From positions 1 to 40,801 of the forward strand of contig JAFSXU010000053.1 in the NCBI GenBank assembly GCA_017443895.1: 40,801 bases of DNA, read 5' to 3'. Below are positions 13,519-22,109 of the stretch, piece by piece. Position 1 is the stretch's first letter; every line of letters begins with the position of its first letter. The notes under the pieces were generated by a model. The model was not told the origin of the DNA. It ran no database searches and worked only from the letters and a program-made list of their open reading frames with translations. The stretch is from Clostridia bacterium (lineage in GTDB: Bacteria > Bacillota > Clostridia > UBA1381). Both the position numbers and the translations under genes were made by a program.

Positions 13519-13556
13519 AAAAAATGAGTTTTTGTATTGGCAAAAACTCATTTTTT
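13519..13556. terminator. Bidirectional terminator between RNase J and the TetR gene
   Basis: AAAAAATGAGTTTTTG / CAAAAACTCATTTTTT is a near-perfect hairpin with a 6-nt loop, A-rich on one side and T-rich on the other. It serves the two convergent genes. Confidence 0.85.
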
Positions 13557-13563
13557 ATGTAAG

Positions 13564-14136
13564 TTACATATATTCCTGTATACTCCTTGATAAAACCTGC
13601 GTCATTGTCCTTGTGCTGTCCTCTAAGCTAATCTCGCCTAATTTATCCCTTGCCCAGTCCTCAAGTATCAGCACATATCCGCCTATAAAGAGTCTTAGGA
13701 TTATCTCAAAATTCTTTTTATCCCGTATCTTTGCCATAAGCTCCGTATCGGATAAGTATATATTTATAACAGTATCACGGAGCTGGTTTAAGAATTTATC
13801 CGCACCTCTTGTTCTTATAAGGGATTTATAGAATTTCTCGTCACTTTCAAGGAAATCAACTATCTCACTTATCGCTTCATACGAGCCTTTTAAGACTATA
13901 TCCTCCTTGGTTACAGACGCCATGATATTATCCATAACATCTGAATGTATCTTCTCCCTTACATCATCAATGGACTTAAAATGTGCATAGAATGTACTTC
14001 TGTTTATATCCGCCTCGTTTACAATGTCCGTCACCGTTATTTTGTCCTTTTCCTGCATAAGGGTTGCGTATGCACGAATAATCATCTTCTCGGAACGGAT
14101 TGCGTTCCTATACGGTTTCTTCGTTCTTTTTTCCAT
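13564..14136 (-). CDS. TetR/AcrR family transcriptional regulator
   Basis: The 190-residue protein has a TetR-type N-terminal helix-turn-helix (about 15-65) with the signature TVTDIVNEADINRSTFYAHFKSIDD, then an all-helical ligand or dimer domain. The C-terminal part resembles the TetR_C domains that accompany transporter genes. It is the last gene of the transporter/GLUG operon: its ATG lies 29 bp inside the end of the GLUG gene, with AAGGTG upstream. It probably represses its own operon in response to a small molecule, but neither ligand nor operator is evident. Confidence 0.85.
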   Translation of the reverse strand: MEKRTKKPYRNAIRSEKMIIRAYATLMQEKDKITVTDIVNEADINRSTFYAHFKSIDDVREKIHSDVMDNIMASVTKEDIVLKGSYEAISEIVDFLESDEKFYKSLIRTRGADKFLNQLRDTVINIYLSDTELMAKIRDKKNFEIILRLFIGGYVLILEDWARDKLGEISLEDSTRTMTQVLSRSIQEYM

Positions 14137-17100
14137 TGTTTGCTTTCACCTTTCTGTATATTTTTTTTACAAATAATGTACCTATTAAAATAAATAATAT
14201 AATAACTATTGCAATACTTATCACAATAATCATATTCGGTTTTTTATAAATCAGCATAAACTCGCCCGGCTCTTTCATGGTAAATACATCATATGTACCG
14301 TCTTGCTCACTATCGGTTATTTGCCATACGCCGTCTTTTTTAACTGCTATCTCTGCCCGTTTTTTTGCATCGTCACGGACATGGATTTTTAAATCGCCGT
14401 ATGAGTCATCGCTCAGACTATAGTTATAAACCTTTCCGACATCATAGCCCCTGAATTCAAAATCGCCGTTTATTTCATTAACTTTTACCTGTGTGCCGTC
14501 TGCAAAAACTCCCTCTACCAGTAAGATAGCAGGCTCCTCGCCCGATGAAATTGTAGTTGTTGCCTTGCTGTACTCGGTCTTAAACACAACATTTCTTATT
14601 ATCGGCTCCGCTGTGTCCCTATCCCACATTGGTATCTCGCCGCCATGTGCGTCAACGCGAGGTATATCCTTATCCGTCAGCTTTTCTCCGTACTCCTTTG
14701 TAACGGTTTTTAGCTCCGTTCCGTTATCTATAAATACAGCTTTAAAATGAAATCTTGCATATTCATCGGATATTGCCTTTATCGTTTCGCCTATATTTTT
14801 GGCGTCATTATCCGATAATGCCTTTATCTGCGGTAAATACTTATCTCCCGATGCAACATAGTATGTGTCGGCATTTAGCTTTGCAAGCTTTGTAGGCATC
14901 CTGCCATCGGTTGATACCATATCATCAGGCTTTATTGCCTCCGCTTTCCCTTCAAGGCTTGTGCCCTCAACTCCTGCCAAGCCCTCATCAATAAAGTAGT
15001 TTGCACTGATCTGACCTGTCACAACACCTGCAACCGCGCCCATTTTATCCGTATTCTTATTCCGTATTACAGGCATTGAATAGCAATTTGTAATGTTCTT
15101 GCCCTCACCGCAAATTCCGCCGACACGGGTCGTGCCATCAAGCTCATCAATGGCGATACAGGTCTTTATATCGGCAAGGGAATATCCGCAAATTCCGCCC
15201 ACATATCCGTCATCCTCCGAGCTTACCTTGGAGGTTGAGAGGCAGTTATCAATATTTCCCATATCGGCTCTTCCTGCTATTCCGCCTGCGTACTTGCCCT
15301 TGACATTTACATCACCCATATTTATGCTTGAATTTATAACAGCCTTTAAAATGGTATCGGGATCAATCTGTGTTCCGTCGGGAAGCTGTATATTCTCGCC
15401 GTTTCTTACTATTGACTCAAAGCCTGTAGCTCCTACTATTCCGCCTGCTGACTCGGTTGAGTCAATTTCGCCGTAGTTTATACAATGCTTAATCAGTGCG
15501 GTATCTGCATTTTCGTTACCGATAAGGCGTGGGATAACGATATTTGTGCTTTGCAGACTGCCGATTGAGATTTCCGTTTCCTTTGCATATGCGGTTGTAT
15601 GCAGGCTTCCGAAAAGCTTGTTGAATATCTCCCGTATCACCGTTGCACCGGGGCTGTCGGGATTTATTGTCGGCAACGGCCTTAGTGTAGGAATTGTGGG
15701 GATTGAGTTTACAAACCGATTAAGTGAATTTACAAGGTTTACCGTCTGCCTTTCAAGTCCGGTAAAGTTATCGGTCATGGTATCTACATCGTCCTCTAAC
15801 GACCTTAACAAGCTCTTTGTTACATTCATTGTATCGTCAAGGTTACCCAATGTAGTTTCAATATTATCGGATAAATCGTTTAGATTGTCAATTGTTTCAC
15901 TTAAATTTAATTCGTCAATCTCATTTTCTATTTTATCTATAAGATCGTTTATATTGTCATCGCCGTTTTCAATGGCATCGTTTAGATTATCTATAAGCTC
16001 TGTAAGCTCATATGCGCTGTCATTAAAAGTTGTGGCTGTTTCGTTTACAATGTCGAGTGTATCGTCTAAGGAGCTATGGAGCTCACTTATACGCCCATCG
16101 GTATCATCGGTTATTTTTGACAAATTATCGTCAATACTTTGGCTTATATCGTCAAGGAAATTTGAAACATTGCTGTTCCCCGTTCCGTTTATCGCATCGG
16201 ACACTGAACGGAAGGTATCGGTTGCGGCTCTTGCTAAGTTTCTGTTATCGGTAACCAAACCGCTTAGCTCATCATGCACTTCATTGCCCGAAAATCCGAA
16301 AACAGTCTGTAAAATATCGTCGGTATAGTCATCTACCTTCTTTTTTACTCTTTCAATTTCCTCCTTTACATCATTTGCCTGTTTCTTGACCGCCGCCTGT
16401 GCGCTTGCATAGCTAAGCTCAATATCGGTATACGGCTCAAATCTGCCGCAAATTCCGCCGACGCTTCGCCTGCCCTGCACCTTTGCATTATTGATACATT
16501 CCTTTGTTTCACCGCTCATCAATCCGCAGATACCGCCTATATTATCGCCAAACACCTCGCCGCCGACTGTGCCGTTATTGGTACACGCTACAACTGCGCC
16601 CTTGTTATTGCCTGCAATTCCGCCGACATTTACGGTATTTTCATTGGCGTCTGCGCCGACCTTGCCGAGGTTTTTACACAGTTTTACTCTGCCCTCGTTA
16701 TAGCCTACAATTCCGCCCACGGTGCTTGTTCCGTTTACGGTGGCATTTACCGAACAGCTGTCTATTATGCCAACCATTGTGTTTAGTCCTGCAATTCCGC
16801 CTGTCTGTTTCTGACCTCTTATACTGCCACGGAATGCACAGTTTACAATCGTACCCTCATTATAGCCCACAACTGCGCCAAAGTTTTCATCGCCCGATGC
16901 AACCTCGCTTTGGATATTCTGTGTGCTTACATCTGCTTTTTCGAGTATGTCAATTGCTTTTTTACGGACAACATTTTGTGTATCCTCTGTCCCGTCCGTT
17001 TTTATAATTCCCGTTACGGTAAGGTCACGGATTTTTGAGCCCTGCGTTGCAATTGCAAACAAGCCCCTGTTTGAACCCTCATATGTAAGCTCGATATTGC

Positions 17101-17365
17101 TTATAGTGTGTCCGTTACCTGCAAACTCACCGCAGAAAATCTCGGCAGGAGTAACCTCAACACCTTTTAAATCAATATCATTTAGGAGGGCAAATTTTTT
17201 GTTTTTTGAATATTCATCAAATGTGCATTTTTTTGTAAATGCCAAAAATTCATCGACTGTTGATATAGACACCGCATCGTCTGCATATGCAAACGGGACC
17301 GCATAGCCCATAAGCATTATAACCGACACCAGCAATGCCCCAAATTTCTTATTCGCTCTCATCAA
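14108..17365 (-). CDS. Secreted, membrane-anchored GLUG-repeat and coiled-coil protein
   Basis: This 1085-residue protein has an N-terminal signal peptide (about 1-28, ending in FAYA). A first block of GLUG-like repeats (about 160-315) shows the recurring form GGIAG-N-G-x-V-x-x-C. A long, Asp/Asn/Leu-rich heptad region (about 315-575) looks like an extended coiled coil. A second GLUG block (about 640-800) and a beta-rich C-terminal region follow. One transmembrane helix (about 1042-1062) and a short basic cytoplasmic tail end the protein. It overlaps the transporter gene by 17 bp and the regulator gene by 29 bp. The start may be TTG (17365) or the adjacent ATG (17362). The architecture suggests an extracellular partner of the RND transporter; the exact function is unknown. 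Confidence 0.8.
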   Translation of the reverse strand: MMRANKKFGALLVSVIMLMGYAVPFAYADDAVSISTVDEFLAFTKKCTFDEYSKNKKFALLNDIDLKGVEVTPAEIFCGEFAGNGHTISNIELTYEGSNRGLFAIATQGSKIRDLTVTGIIKTDGTEDTQNVVRKKAIDILEKADVSTQNIQSEVASGDENFGAVVGYNEGTIVNCAFRGSIRGQKQTGGIAGLNTMVGIIDSCSVNATVNGTSTVGGIVGYNEGRVKLCKNLGKVGADANENTVNVGGIAGNNKGAVVACTNNGTVGGEVFGDNIGGICGLMSGETKECINNAKVQGRRSVGGICGRFEPYTDIELSYASAQAAVKKQANDVKEEIERVKKKVDDYTDDILQTVFGFSGNEVHDELSGLVTDNRNLARAATDTFRSVSDAINGTGNSNVSNFLDDISQSIDDNLSKITDDTDGRISELHSSLDDTLDIVNETATTFNDSAYELTELIDNLNDAIENGDDNINDLIDKIENEIDELNLSETIDNLNDLSDNIETTLGNLDDTMNVTKSLLRSLEDDVDTMTDNFTGLERQTVNLVNSLNRFVNSIPTIPTLRPLPTINPDSPGATVIREIFNKLFGSLHTTAYAKETEISIGSLQSTNIVIPRLIGNENADTALIKHCINYGEIDSTESAGGIVGATGFESIVRNGENIQLPDGTQIDPDTILKAVINSSINMGDVNVKGKYAGGIAGRADMGNIDNCLSTSKVSSEDDGYVGGICGYSLADIKTCIAIDELDGTTRVGGICGEGKNITNCYSMPVIRNKNTDKMGAVAGVVTGQISANYFIDEGLAGVEGTSLEGKAEAIKPDDMVSTDGRMPTKLAKLNADTYYVASGDKYLPQIKALSDNDAKNIGETIKAISDEYARFHFKAVFIDNGTELKTVTKEYGEKLTDKDIPRVDAHGGEIPMWDRDTAEPIIRNVVFKTEYSKATTTISSGEEPAILLVEGVFADGTQVKVNEINGDFEFRGYDVGKVYNYSLSDDSYGDLKIHVRDDAKKRAEIAVKKDGVWQITDSEQDGTYDVFTMKEPGEFMLIYKKPNMIIVISIAIVIILFILIGTLFVKKIYRKVKANNGKKNEETV

Positions 17366-19841
17366 TTTGCATAACCTCCTCGCCTGTATTCTCTATAAGA
17401 TTATCGTCCTGCTCGCCAAGCTCAACCCTCGCATTTAACTGACCTTTTACAACTCCGAAAAATACTCCGTCAACAAAGCCCGAAACATCGCCTCGTATTC
17501 GTCCGTTTACAACAATAAGTCCCGACAAATCACGCCTTGATTTTTCATCGTCTTTTGCCTCCTCACGCTTAAAGGAGGTCTTTTCTATGAGCTTATCACA
17601 GGTTACTATTATCTGTGGCAGTACGAACATTACAACAACTATTGATATAAATGTACCTCGCCCAAGCGCAATACCAAGTGATGATATTATTGCATCTGAT
17701 GATAACCACCCTATTACAAAGCCTGCAAGCGTAAGAATTGAGCCGGAGGTAAATATAGTCGGGAACGACTGGTTAAACGAGCTTACCGCCGCATCAATAT
17801 TTGACATTGTTTCCTTTAATTGCATATACCTGTTTGTAAAGACTATTGCATAATCAATTGTCGCGCCCATTTGTATGGAGCTTACAACAAGGTAGCTCAA
17901 AAAATAGAGCGGTGTTGATGTAAGATACGGAATAGCAAAGTTTATCCATATACTTCCCTGTATCGCAATTACCAAAAGCACCGGTATTCCTGCGGACCTG
18001 AAGGTTACCATAAGTATCAGCAATACCGCAAGAAGGGTAACAATGCTTATCTTTTTATTATCACCGCCAAACGAGTCGCCAAGGTCACGGCTGTTTACGC
18101 TGTCTGATACTATCAGACAATCGGGGTAATATTCCAAAACTGCGGAGCGTATATCCTTTAAAAGCTCATAAGATTCCTCGCTCTCAACATCGCACCTGTA
18201 TGTAAATACCAGTCTTGAAAACTTATCGCTCTCAAGCTGATCCTTTGCATCGACCAATTTATCGTATAATTCGTTTAAGTCCTGTGTCTGCTCCTCGTCC
18301 AGATTTACTATACCCAAATCCATTTTCTCATGTATGTACATAAACAAATCAATTATCGGCACGGTATAATCGTTTACATCCGCAAAGATAGCGCTGTATT
18401 CTTCATGCTCCACACCGTATGCCTGAAACAGCAGGCAGCATGTATCATATTCAACGCCCAGAAGCTTTGATAATTCTCTTGCATTTATCTTTTGCGTCAA
18501 CAAATAATCGTCATTGACCTTCGTATTTGCAAGACCCAGGGCGGAATTTATTTCGGGGTTTCGCTCAATTAAGGATATTACCTTTGCCTCCCTGTCATAG
18601 TCGCCCGACGGCACAATTACCGCAAGCTGATGCTCGGTTTTAAATACCTCGCTTATTTTCTGCCTTGATAAGGATTCATCCGTCGCCTTTTTCGCCTGCT
18701 CGGATCTTGAATCAAATGTATAATTACTCTTTGACGATAAAACGGCGCACACCAATATTACAACCATAAATACCACAGGCAGTACATACCTTAGCTTTAT
18801 CATTGCCCTGCCTATAAACTCGATATTGGGAACATATGATTTATGTACGGTTTTATCAATAAGCGCTGAAAATCTTAAAAGCAATCCCGGCATAAGCAAG
18901 AACACTGAAATAAGTGAGCATAATATTCCCTTACACAGTACCAGGCCCATGTCCATACCTATCTTTAACTGCATTATGCAAAGCGCCGCAAGTCCTGCAA
19001 TGGTTGTCAAAGATGATGAGCTTATCTCAATAATCGCCTTTGACAAAGCCGCAACAAGTGCATCATGAGTGTTCTTTGTAAGCTTTTCCTCCGCAAACCT
19101 GTGCGACATGATAATCGAATAGTCTATCGCAAGCGCCAGCTGCAAGACCACCGCTACCGATTTTGTGATAAACGAAATCTCGCCGAATATGTAGTTTGTA
19201 CCCATATTAAGGACCGCCGCAACACCGAACACTATTAAAAATACGGGTATTTCCATAAAGCTCCGTGATGTAAAAAGCAGTACCGCAATTATTATAAGCA
19301 CCGAAACAGACAAAATAACCTGCATTTCATCATCAAGCTTTTTTGAGCTACTGTCGATGGAGTCCGAATACATATAATAATCATAACCCGAAAGCGTTTT
19401 CTTTACATTATCAATTATAATAAGCTCTTGGTCAAGATCATCATCAACATCAAGCGTTACATTAAAAAGTGCCGAGGAGTCCTTATAATGATCCTCATCG
19501 TCCTCAAAATCAACGCTTTTTACCCCGTCAACCTTTTCTATCCGTTTTTGGAGCTTCTTGGCAGTTTGGTAGCTTACATTTGTTACCATTACCTTTTCGG
19601 TGTCGTATGTAATAAATTCCTCGTCCATAAGCGTAAGTCCGCGCCGTGTTTCGGTATCTGACGGCAGATATGAGCTTATGTCGTTATTTACGCTGACCTT
19701 TGACATTGTAAACAGACACAGTAAAAAAGCCACCGCAAATATAAGATAAAATGCACGGTGCTTGTCAACTATGAATTCTGAAATCTTGAGCATCACATTA
19801 GATGTCTTGCTCTCTTTTTCTTCAAAATTCTGATTATCCAT
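17349..19841 (-). CDS. RND superfamily / MMPL family transporter
   Basis: This 830-residue transporter has the duplicated RND layout. There is a transmembrane helix at about 33-50, an extracellular domain (about 51-170), five helices (about 173-350, containing ALAIDYSIIMSHRF), another single helix, a second extracellular domain and five more helices (about 600-760, containing IDYAIVFTNRY). The two charged DY motifs are typical proton-relay positions of MMPL proteins. Substrates of this group are usually lipids or other hydrophobic molecules, but nothing here identifies one. The unusual C-terminal tail (about 775-815) alternates glycine and valine in a G-x-V/I-x-G pattern. It is the first gene of the operon with GLUG and TetR; the promoter and structured leader are directly upstream. 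Confidence 0.9.
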   Translation of the reverse strand: MDNQNFEEKESKTSNVMLKISEFIVDKHRAFYLIFAVAFLLCLFTMSKVSVNNDISSYLPSDTETRRGLTLMDEEFITYDTEKVMVTNVSYQTAKKLQKRIEKVDGVKSVDFEDDEDHYKDSSALFNVTLDVDDDLDQELIIIDNVKKTLSGYDYYMYSDSIDSSSKKLDDEMQVILSVSVLIIIAVLLFTSRSFMEIPVFLIVFGVAAVLNMGTNYIFGEISFITKSVAVVLQLALAIDYSIIMSHRFAEEKLTKNTHDALVAALSKAIIEISSSSLTTIAGLAALCIMQLKIGMDMGLVLCKGILCSLISVFLLMPGLLLRFSALIDKTVHKSYVPNIEFIGRAMIKLRYVLPVVFMVVILVCAVLSSKSNYTFDSRSEQAKKATDESLSRQKISEVFKTEHQLAVIVPSGDYDREAKVISLIERNPEINSALGLANTKVNDDYLLTQKINARELSKLLGVEYDTCCLLFQAYGVEHEEYSAIFADVNDYTVPIIDLFMYIHEKMDLGIVNLDEEQTQDLNELYDKLVDAKDQLESDKFSRLVFTYRCDVESEESYELLKDIRSAVLEYYPDCLIVSDSVNSRDLGDSFGGDNKKISIVTLLAVLLILMVTFRSAGIPVLLVIAIQGSIWINFAIPYLTSTPLYFLSYLVVSSIQMGATIDYAIVFTNRYMQLKETMSNIDAAVSSFNQSFPTIFTSGSILTLAGFVIGWLSSDAIISSLGIALGRGTFISIVVVMFVLPQIIVTCDKLIEKTSFKREEAKDDEKSRRDLSGLIVVNGRIRGDVSGFVDGVFFGVVKGQLNARVELGEQDDNLIENTGEEVMQIDESE

Positions 19842-19997: not shown

Positions 19998-20192
19998 CAG
20001 TTAGTTTTTAAATATTAGTATAATATTATATATTTATGCAGTGTTTTGTATGACTTTGTACATTTTTAGCAAATTGCACAAATCACATTTACTTGTATGA
20101 ATTTAAACGCTTTGTCACTATTTGAAAACCACGGCAGACACGCCAAAATTTATATTATAGTCGGACAAATCAAATTATTATTTACAGACTAT

Positions 20193-20254: not shown

Positions 20255-20605
20255 TTAAAAATTACCCAATCCAAAGCTAATGGAAATTGCATTATTTACA
20301 CGGCTCATTAAGCCCTCGTCAAGCCTGCCTATTCTTTCTCTCAGGCGTCTTTTATCAATTGTTCGTATTTGCTCAAGCAAGACCACAGAGTCCTTGTTCA
20401 AGCCGTATTCCTTAGCAGTAAGCTCGATATGTGTAGGCATCTTCGCCTTATTTATCTGGCTCGTTATCGCCGCGGCAATAACCGTCGGACTATATTTATT
20501 GCCAACATCGTTCTGAACAATCAAAACAGGCCGTATTCCACCCTGTTCACTGCCCACAACGGGACTTAAATCAGCATAATAAATATCTCCTCTTTTAACA
20601 ATCAC
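20255..20605 (-). CDS. mazF: MazF/NdoA-type mRNA interferase toxin
   Basis: MazF is a sequence-specific single-strand endoribonuclease and the toxin of a type II system. The 116-residue protein matches NdoA in length and motifs: [29 protein letters not shown] with catalytic R25, and ITSQINK with T48. The start is GTG (20603-20605), and GGAG lies within the end of the antitoxin frame. It follows its antitoxin by 3 bp and lies downstream of alr, as in Bacillus subtilis alr-ndoAI-ndoA. Confidence 0.95.
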
Positions 20606-20608
20606 TTT

Positions 20609-20764
20609 TTAGTCACACTCCAATAGCTTATCGACATAAGTATCAAAGGCATCATTATCCGAGGTAACCGCATCTTGGGCAAGCTCGGAATTTATCTTTG
20701 CCATTTCCTTATATCCATTTTCTAAAGCCTTATTCATCTCATCATTATTTTTTATCTGTGACAA
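20609..20764 (-). CDS. Short MazE/NdoAI-like antitoxin without DNA-binding domain
   Basis: This is a 51-residue acidic peptide read from a TTG start (20762-20764) with GAGG 5 nt upstream. An in-frame stop seven codons before that TTG rules out a longer form in this frame. The core segment NGYKEMAKINSELAQDA resembles the C-terminal, toxin-binding half of Bacillus NdoAI, which has GYMEMAKIN at the same place. The ribbon-helix-helix DNA-binding half of that antitoxin is missing; a structured repeat element occupies the space upstream. An ATG at codon 10 is an alternative start. Position, the 3-bp gap to mazF and the sequence match make the antitoxin call likely. Confidence 0.75.
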   Translation of the reverse strand: MSQIKNNDEMNKALENGYKEMAKINSELAQDAVTSDNDAFDTYVDKLLECD

Positions 20765-20948: not shown

Positions 20949-22109
20949 CTATTTTAAGTTATCTATTACCTCAACAACCGAATTATCACGAATATATACC
21001 CTTGGTATTCGTTTTGAGATACAGCACGATACTTCATAGTTAATGGTATGAAGCCATGAAGCCAAATCGTCAATAGTAACGGTATCTTTGCCAAAAAGGG
21101 TTACCTCATCACCTACACTAATATTATGGACATTTGTTACATCAATCATACACTGATCCATACATATTCGTCCGATAATTTTCGCCTTTTTGTTACCTAT
21201 TGCGATATATCCCTCTTTTGCTATACCCCTTAAATACCCGTCGGCATACCCGACAGGAACAGTTGCAACAACTGTTTTATCACTGCTTGTTATGTACTCC
21301 TTGCCGTAGCTTATGCCACATTTTGGGCCAAGAGCTTTGATATTGGTTATCCGTGATTTTAAGCTCATTACAGGATAGAGTTCTAACCTCGACTTATCAA
21401 CCTCGTCTGACGGATACATACCGTATAAAATTACACCCGGGCGCACCATATCAAGGTGCATTTTAGGGTACATCATAATCCCTGCGCTGTTACAGATATG
21501 GCGAATGGGAATTTTAAGTCCCCTATCCTCTAAGGCGTTACACACATTCATAAACCGCTCAAACTGTAATTGTGTATAGTCGCCGTTTTCCTCATCGGAG
21601 GTTGAAAAATGCGAGAATATTCCCTCAATATTTATATTGGGGAGCTTTGACATCTCTAAAATTTCAGATACCACATCTTCATTATCATCGCCTATAACAT
21701 AACCAATCCTACCCATGCCCGTATCAAGCTTTATATGGATATTCACGGTTTTATTCTTTTTAACCGCCGTATCGGATATTGACTTTGCTATTTTATATGA
21801 ATATACATTTGGGATTATGTCATAGTCAATAAGCGTTTCTATCATATCCTCCATGCAAGTTCCCAAAATAAGCATTGGTGCACTTATGCCTGCCTTGCGT
21901 ATCAGCACACCCTCCTCTGCCGTTGCAACGGCAAGATAGTCCGCGCCGTTCTCTAAAAATGTTTTTGCCAGTTGGTAGTAGCCGTTACCGTATGCATCAG
22001 CCTTTACAACCGCCATAATCTTGGCGTTTTTGTCGGTTATGGCTCTAATATTTTGAATATTTGATTTGGCAGCGTCAAGGTCAATTTCTGCCCATGTTCT
22101 TTTTATCAT
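20949..22109 (-). CDS. alr: Alanine racemase
   Basis: Alr interconverts L- and D-alanine with pyridoxal phosphate and supplies D-Ala for peptidoglycan. The 386-residue protein has the PLP lysine K36 in VVKADAYGNG, the catalytic tyrosine Y268 in CGISYGKEY, and the C-terminal beta domain with IGRICMDQCMIDVT. The ATG follows AGGACAGGAT. It is 37 bp after nnr and precedes the mazEF pair, a conserved arrangement. Confidence 0.97.
   Translation of the reverse strand: MIKRTWAEIDLDAAKSNIQNIRAITDKNAKIMAVVKADAYGNGYYQLAKTFLENGADYLAVATAEEGVLIRKAGISAPMLILGTCMEDMIETLIDYDIIPNVYSYKIAKSISDTAVKKNKTVNIHIKLDTGMGRIGYVIGDDNEDVVSEILEMSKLPNINIEGIFSHFSTSDEENGDYTQLQFERFMNVCNALEDRGLKIPIRHICNSAGIMMYPKMHLDMVRPGVILYGMYPSDEVDKSRLELYPVMSLKSRITNIKALGPKCGISYGKEYITSSDKTVVATVPVGYADGYLRGIAKEGYIAIGNKKAKIIGRICMDQCMIDVTNVHNISVGDEVTLFGKDTVTIDDLASWLHTINYEVSCCISKRIPRVYIRDNSVVEVIDNLK

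Follow-up and report, generated by a model that had tools for sequence, protein, structure and literature searches.

The surface protein with GLUG repeats and a helical arm that is encoded directly downstream of an MMPL/RND transporter in the analysed genome of a gut-type Clostridia bacterium is, on sequence grounds, well supported as a dedicated partner of that transporter, because all 42 genomes of a class-wide sample that hold the partner also hold the transporter and because the two proteins are fused into one polypeptide in some relatives. The locus probably encodes a TetR-regulated exporter of a hydrophobic compound, in which the MMPL protein works with this beta-helix partner as an extracellular scaffold or conduit, a reading favoured here with moderate confidence.

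Organization of the locus

The window, i.e., the whole stretch of DNA that was analysed, covers the initial 40.8 kb of a contig of 105 kb, in a genome of 2.72 Mb. The MMPL gene, the GLUG/helical gene and the tetR gene are arranged head to tail with short overlaps, with one consensus promoter before them and one terminator after them (Table 1). The coordinates and gene order given by the first-pass annotation were confirmed, with all three genes on the minus strand. The 29 bp overlap it had reported between the GLUG/helical gene and tetR was also found, while the 17 bp overlap between the MMPL and GLUG/helical genes is obtained only from a TTG start and shrinks to 14 bp from the adjacent ATG. 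AGGAGG stands upstream of the GLUG/helical gene start. Elements comparable to the -35/-10 sequences were seen 5' of the MMPL gene in several relatives, and the gene converging on tetR encodes RNase J (Pfam). The MMPL and the GLUG/helical protein are each present in one copy in their own genome, and the closest named relative was a rumen MAG labelled uncultured Ruminococcus sp. (79% identity).

Table 1. Features of the transporter locus, in order of transcription (positions in the window).
Feature	Position	Strand	Basis
Candidate TetR operator dyad TGT-N10-ACA (TGTACAAAGTCATACA), ~49 bp upstream of -35	20047..20062	-	
Promoter TTGACA-17-TATAAT, 12/12 consensus matches, ~128 bp before the MMPL start codon	19969..19997	-	
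MMPL/RND transporter, 830 aa	17349..19841	-	ORF + Pfam
MMPL residues 454-536, short helical insert in second extracellular domain	18234..18482	-	model
MMPL residues 773-815, Gly-spaced C-terminal cytoplasmic tail, pLDDT 32-46	17397..17525	-	sequence + model
GLUG/helical surface protein (partner), 1084 aa from ATG	14108..17362 (14108-17365 from TTG)	-	ORF + Pfam + model
Partner residues 1-28, signal peptide ending AYA/DD (cut between)	17279..17362	-	read from sequence
Partner residues 30-310, GLUG-repeat portion of the right-handed beta-helix before the arm	16433..17275	-	Pfam + model
Partner residues 318-553, coiled-coil-like helical arm inserted into the beta-helix, low pLDDT	15704..16411	-	model
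Partner residues 604-850, continuation of this beta-helix after the arm	14813..15553	-	model
Partner residues 872-1040, two beta-rich domains, diagnostic for the family (alignment A4)	14243..14749	-	model + profile
Partner residues 1044-1075, C-terminal membrane helix with basic tail	14138..14233	-	
TetR-family regulator, 190 aa	13564..14136	-	ORF + Pfam
Likely bidirectional terminator (perfect inverted repeat of 16 nt) separating tetR from the convergent RNase J gene	13519..13556	.	

Co-occurrence of the partner and the transporter

Three genome samples were used: the window's family (70 genomes), the class (391 genomes) and a phylum-wide set (398 genomes). One hundred MMPL neighbourhoods were fetched (101 with the window) and fell into two subfamilies, S1, to which the window belongs (74 loci), and S2 (27 loci). 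All 35 S1 matches of the class search outside the window's family were fetched, whereas the S2 set, made up of 25 class and two family loci, is a part of the available matches.

S1 transporters were detected in 44 of the 391 class genomes (at least 581 bits, the next genome scoring 231) and were spread over 14 numbered families. The partner was searched for in the same genomes with a profile of its C-terminal beta domains (A4, 51 rows). Its full C-terminal domain was found in 42 genomes, with 42 full-length matches of at least 115 bits; the next match, of 66 bits, covered half the length, and the partial matches from this score down were attributed to different proteins that have one beta domain in common. 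All 42 partner genomes were among the 44 genomes with an S1 MMPL, and in the remaining two (G264 and G290) a contig end cuts the partner before the domain used for the search. The co-occurrence gave a Fisher p of 1.8e-54, with shared descent ignored, and the mirror-tree correlation between MMPL and partner, 0.94 for 49 pairs and calculated without a species-tree control, is not counted as evidence.

The genes are also neighbours. In 72 of the 74 S1 loci the partner was directly downstream of the MMPL gene or fused to it in frame, a recurrence far beyond chance, the other two loci being contig ends. A separate GLUG-bearing partner lay directly downstream in 67 loci and followed a frame-broken MMPL gene in one (L072); four loci were fused (L140, L148, L150 and L153) and two stood at a contig edge (L071 and L156). 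Overlapping genes were counted in 56 of the 67 separate pairs, which is an upper bound because the most-upstream starts were used; the mis-assigned downstream ORFs of L072 and L153 were left out of this count. The partner gene was split into two ORFs at L088, L136 and L155. The phylum-wide sample yielded six matches to the partner profile and six to the MMPL, and in five further genomes outside the class the two genes were side by side in every case (5/5), some of them cut by contig ends. In one genome of the family sample (G040) the partner was located at a contig start and no MMPL match was obtained.

A GLUG protein encoded mostly without the transporter, named in the first-pass annotation as the finding that would speak against a partnership, was not what the class sample revealed, as the count was 42/42. 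The same count bears on a different explanation, according to which the surface protein is an adhesin or a wall-spacing protein merely co-regulated with the transporter. Many surface proteins have GLUG repeats, a signal peptide, a membrane anchor and helical regions, and these genomes gave abundant matches confined to the GLUG region. Independent movement would be expected of an adhesin, yet the partner was never seen without the transporter in the class sample and is fused to it in one genus, so this explanation is considered improbable.

Fusions of the two proteins

Single ORFs of 1912, 1913, 1921 and 2003 aa joining the MMPL and the partner were found in four genomes, all from genus g89 of family f54. 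A fifth g89 genome has the locus split over two contigs, with the MMPL at the end of one and, on the other, a 1384-aa ORF with matches to the partner and to the end of the MMPL. Across the fusion point, the final helix of the MMPL is followed by a short basic stretch, a hydrophobic segment ending in VRAE or similar and then the beta-helix; this in-frame hydrophobic segment occupies the place of the signal peptide. The locus of G338, from another genus of the same family, was unfused. The fusions may represent one event, since all of them come from one genus. The earlier proposal of an external partner, spacer or adaptor gained support, as regards partnership, from these one-polypeptide forms together with the strict co-occurrence; the partner may act as a spacer, a conduit or a substrate acceptor. 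For unfused proteins, physical contact between MMPL and partner is presumed.

A candidate fusion at the S2 locus L176 was rejected, as its 1347-aa ORF turned out to encode an MMPL whose second extracellular domain carries a large tandem helical insertion.

A second MMPL subfamily with a different partner

The S2 transporters scored about 300-400 phmmer bits. A large partner gene was present downstream in 25 of the 27 S2 loci, and 18 of these 25 partners matched TIGR03057, the model of the X-X-X-Leu-X-X-Gly heptad. No downstream partner was found at L158 and L176, so that a partner is not universal among the MMPLs of the class. Like the S1 partner, the TIGR03057 proteins are coiled-coil proteins whose genes immediately follow an MMPL gene in genomes of this class, but they have no GLUG beta-helix and no C-terminal transmembrane segment was called in them at the threshold used; conversely, TIGR03057 was absent from the matches of the window partner. 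Comparison of S1 and S2 partners by hhalign gave a probability of 96 over 47 columns of repeat-like sequence with 13% identity, which does not point to convincing homology. The S2 pairing is consistent with a general need for a helical arm.

The MMPL transporter

The transporter matched Pfam MMPL in two stretches (6.6e-33; 114.5 bits, cut-off 20.5). Its score against the HAE3 subfamily model TIGR00921 was 135.5 bits, below the curated cut-off of 351.9, and it was not assigned to this subfamily. Asp-Tyr pairs in TM4 and TM10 of MMPL/RND transporters form the proton relay. In an alignment of 58 sequences, D240, Y241 and Y664 were invariant and D663 was conserved in at least 90%. Proton coupling and an outward direction of transport are presumed for the MMPL.

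The AlphaFold2 model of the transporter (mean pLDDT 77.5) had an RND fold, with MmpL4/5 and MmpL3 matching it at Z 44-41 over about 640-660 residues. The top structural matches were MmpL4 and MmpL5 (Z 44-43; Foldseek 2.6e-26), AdeB/AcrB and MmpL3 scored close behind, and HpnN was also among the matches. A coiled-coil hairpin like that of MmpL4/5, which is about 190 aa long, was sought in the second extracellular domain of the model and was absent, the longest predicted helix there having 21 residues.

Structure and conservation of the partner

The GLUG repeats and the C-terminal membrane anchor ascribed to the middle protein in the first-pass annotation were both recovered, the former as a Pfam Glug (PF07581) match above the cut-off (2.6e-12; 46.7 bits, cut-off 20.5) and the latter as a transmembrane helix in the model. 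The AlphaFold2 model, built with 58 sequences, had a mean pLDDT of 76 and a pTM of 0.62. Values for the beta-helix were mostly 85-97, weaker at residues about 121-160 and 651-670, while those for the arm were about 35-70, a range in which a hairpin, a bundle and an oligomer look alike. The segment separating the two beta-helix parts measured 283-553 aa in the 58 sequences.

Structural comparison (VIA-align 2) matched the beta-helix with those of IgA1 proteases (Z 23.8-22.6; the best with 261 aligned residues, 3.0 A), with B. ovatus 3n6z (Z 22.2) and with the A-module of AlgE4 (Z 17.4; 306 aligned, 3.3 A). The aligned ranges, given by their first and last residues only, run from near residue 30 to beyond 680 and so span both sides of the insertion, which suggests that the beta-helix is continuous and that the helical arm loops out of it. 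Foldseek alone gave no match to the partner model at E 0.001, the IgA1 protease appearing at 0.14. Matches of helical bundles to residues 317-554 (Z about 15) were near the chance level for helical models. Among the best 60 of 391 PDB sequences matched by the partner profile, the matches fell in the helical region and were mostly to functionally unrelated proteins of coiled-coil or helical type. The C-terminal domains of the window copy matched no Pfam family, and Flg_new was touched weakly by those of three of the 51 relatives.

The beta-helix type is common to the partner and IgA1 proteases, but the partner has the inserted arm and a membrane anchor, and no peptidase family was found among its Pfam/NCBIfam matches at E 0.1, so it was not counted among these proteases. 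Its invariant positions are mainly glycine, Asn, Pro, Trp and Tyr, and the polar residues conserved in at least 80% of the 58 sequences are scattered along the sequence with no evident active-site cluster. For these two reasons a scaffold is favoured over an enzyme.

These observations also bear on the possibility that the MMPL exports an envelope lipid or glycolipid and that the beta-helix protein receives or chaperones it, binding glycan or handing the product to the wall with no conduit involved. The structural matches of the MMPL include lipid exporters (MmpL3 and HpnN), and the beta-helix also matches glycan-acting folds such as the AlgE4 epimerase, tailspikes and polygalacturonases (Z 10-17). 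The latter are nevertheless a common fold and score below the IgA1 protease beta-helix, the scatter of conserved polar residues does not resemble an active site, and the invariably present helical arm is left unexplained, which makes such a receiver role unlikely.

The arm was the least conserved part of the partner (15% mean identity), whereas identity in the beta-helix was high. An identity this low is odd for a specific tube and counts against a conduit. The same pattern would arise if a variable part facing a ligand were mounted on a constant platform, as expected if the partner were a sensor or gate, whose arm senses wall or membrane stress while the transporter otherwise works without it. 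No signalling domain was found in the partner with Pfam, though, and its cytoplasmic tail has only about 10 residues; little credence is given to a sensor.

The TetR-family regulator

The regulator belongs to the TetR family according to Pfam (TetR_N 24.3 bits, cut-off 24; TetR_C_8 33.6 bits, cut-off 26.1), and its score of 47.5 bits against the DhaS model TIGR02366 lies below the curated cut-off of 129, outside the DhaS group. With one TetR query, a regulator gene was detected downstream of the pair in 10 of the 74 S1 loci, divergent upstream in 34 and upstream on the same strand in six, and none was detected in 24; the divergent TetRs score weaker with this single query. Detected by this query in only 50 of 74 loci and in three placements, the TetR was rejected as a core component. 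The first-pass description of an operon of three genes therefore fits the window, but the constant unit across loci is the MMPL-partner pair, with TetR as a variable element.

The dyad TGT-N10-ACA precedes the MMPL gene in all 11 window-clade loci with enough upstream sequence, whereas 2000 simulated sets averaged 1.0 and never exceeded 5 of 11, the motif having been picked on the same 11 regions. It was also found in 16 of 57 other loci, and L073, L074 and L075 have a further copy no more than 50 bp from the predicted start of the MMPL gene. A narrower form of the dyad has four matches in the window, which is not clearly above chance. The dyad is proposed as a candidate TetR operator only, since it was defined by eye on the 11 regions and then counted there. 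The regulator is expected to repress or activate the operon.

Comparison with known systems and proposed function

No Omp85 match was obtained in the genome of the window, while the same model was positive in 7 of 14 control genomes; this is consistent with the single-membrane cell assumed in the first-pass annotation. Periplasmic adaptors are beta-domain proteins with an inserted helical arm and barrel/lipoyl domains. The partner resembles the adaptors of tripartite RND pumps in these first two traits and in serving one RND pump. It differs from them in having a beta-helix in place of the barrel/lipoyl domains, in the lack of any adaptor or membrane fusion protein family among its Pfam/NCBIfam matches at E 0.1, and in its genomic setting, where no outer membrane marker was found.

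The mycobacterial MmpL4/5-MmpS4/5 systems are similar in the MMPL fold, an operon-encoded single-TM partner, a helical coil outside the membrane and a cytoplasmic-membrane pump that has to cross a wall (PMC12501195 and PMC12346298). As described in these and a third report, efflux by MmpL5 depends on its 196-aa coiled coil, for which a tube has been proposed, and MmpS5 is required for function (PMC12501195); MmpS5 stabilises the periplasmic parts of MmpL5 (PMC12346298); and trimer formation by MmpL10 is driven by its coiled coil (PMC12183618). The mycobacterial coil forms part of the transporter itself, next to a small Ig-like partner protein, whereas here the arm is carried by the 1084-aa beta-helix partner and the transporter lacks a coil. 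In keeping with this, no MmpS family match was found for the partner, which is not a small protein with a TM segment and one Ig-like domain. Since the coil has such a role in mycobacteria and the helical part is here on a separate gene, the partner may, by analogy, provide an oligomerising or conduit function in trans.

The S. aureus FarE/FarR system, compared by description, likewise consists of a Gram-positive RND/MMPL pump adjoining a TetR-family regulator gene and confers resistance to an antimicrobial fatty acid; FarR is divergent, unlike the downstream TetR of the window, and no GLUG/helical partner is mentioned in the available part of the source (PMC10019231). By analogy with FarE/FarR and the MmpLs, the substrate may be fatty acids or other hydrophobic compounds. 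Literature searches, with subscription papers mostly outside their coverage, returned no paper combining GLUG with MMPL, nor one combining a GLUG motif with a coiled coil and a transporter, and those on Gram-positive/Firmicutes MMPLs and on MMPL with YhgE/heptad repeats returned no such partner.

In the favoured reading, that of a regulated exporter with a scaffold or conduit partner, the proton-driven pump would extract from the membrane and export a compound of hydrophobic or amphiphilic nature, for instance a fatty acid, a lipid or a toxic molecule of similar type. The beta-helix platform would sit over the extracellular domains of the transporter, and the helical arm would play, outside the membrane, the part of the mycobacterial coiled-coil hairpin and MmpS, organising the pump and extending the exit path through the cell wall. 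A bolder version is entertained only tentatively: the arms would oligomerise into a tube through the peptidoglycan, forming a conduit in trans, and the S2 MMPLs would have done the same with an unrelated coiled-coil protein, so that Clostridia would possess their own, independently arisen single-membrane multipart RND pumps.

The data suggest that the partner is a pump accessory of a kind not described before, serving single-membrane cells. RND pumps of such cells are poorly understood, and how hydrophobic cargo passes a thick wall is an open question. A partner family that in the sampled genomes is tied to the pump and sometimes fused to it offers a clear target for addressing how the wall is crossed.

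Coding sequences flanking the transporter and the tail of the window MMPL protein

The 51-aa ORF preceding the gene of a MazF/PemK-type toxin in the window could encode the antitoxin of this toxin. The gene adjoining the pair (20949-22109) is, as we take it from its sequence, alanine racemase-like. The Gly-spaced cytoplasmic tail of the window MMPL protein, which by eye is similar to bactofilin-like repeats, was present in the longer members of the window-type subfamily (about 810-850 aa) and absent from those near 770 aa.

Features located in the window and in two loci of the second MMPL subfamily
Feature	Location	Strand	Remark
Gly-spaced cytoplasmic tail, window MMPL	window 17397-17525		low confidence in the model
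MazF/PemK-type toxin gene with preceding ORF	window 20255-20764		
Preceding ORF	window 20609-20764	minus	51 aa
L158 MMPL	L158:4276-6825		849 aa
L176 MMPL-like ORF	L176:3629-7672		1347 aa

A second MMPL subfamily and its partners

In the class, a coiled-coil protein was encoded downstream of second-subfamily MMPL genes (loci L098, L099 and L159-L182). The X-X-X-Leu-X-X-Gly heptad type (TIGR03057 match) was detected in 18 of 25 such partners, and their C-termini carried a conserved aromatic/basic segment, where no TM helix was called. No partner gene was found downstream of the MMPL gene in the L158 neighbourhood, nor of the MMPL-like ORF in that of L176. In the second extracellular domain of the latter protein, an inserted helical region several hundred residues long was made up of tandem repeats, and a short stretch in the window MMPL, for which BLAST gave weak matches only, may correspond to one unit of such an insertion.
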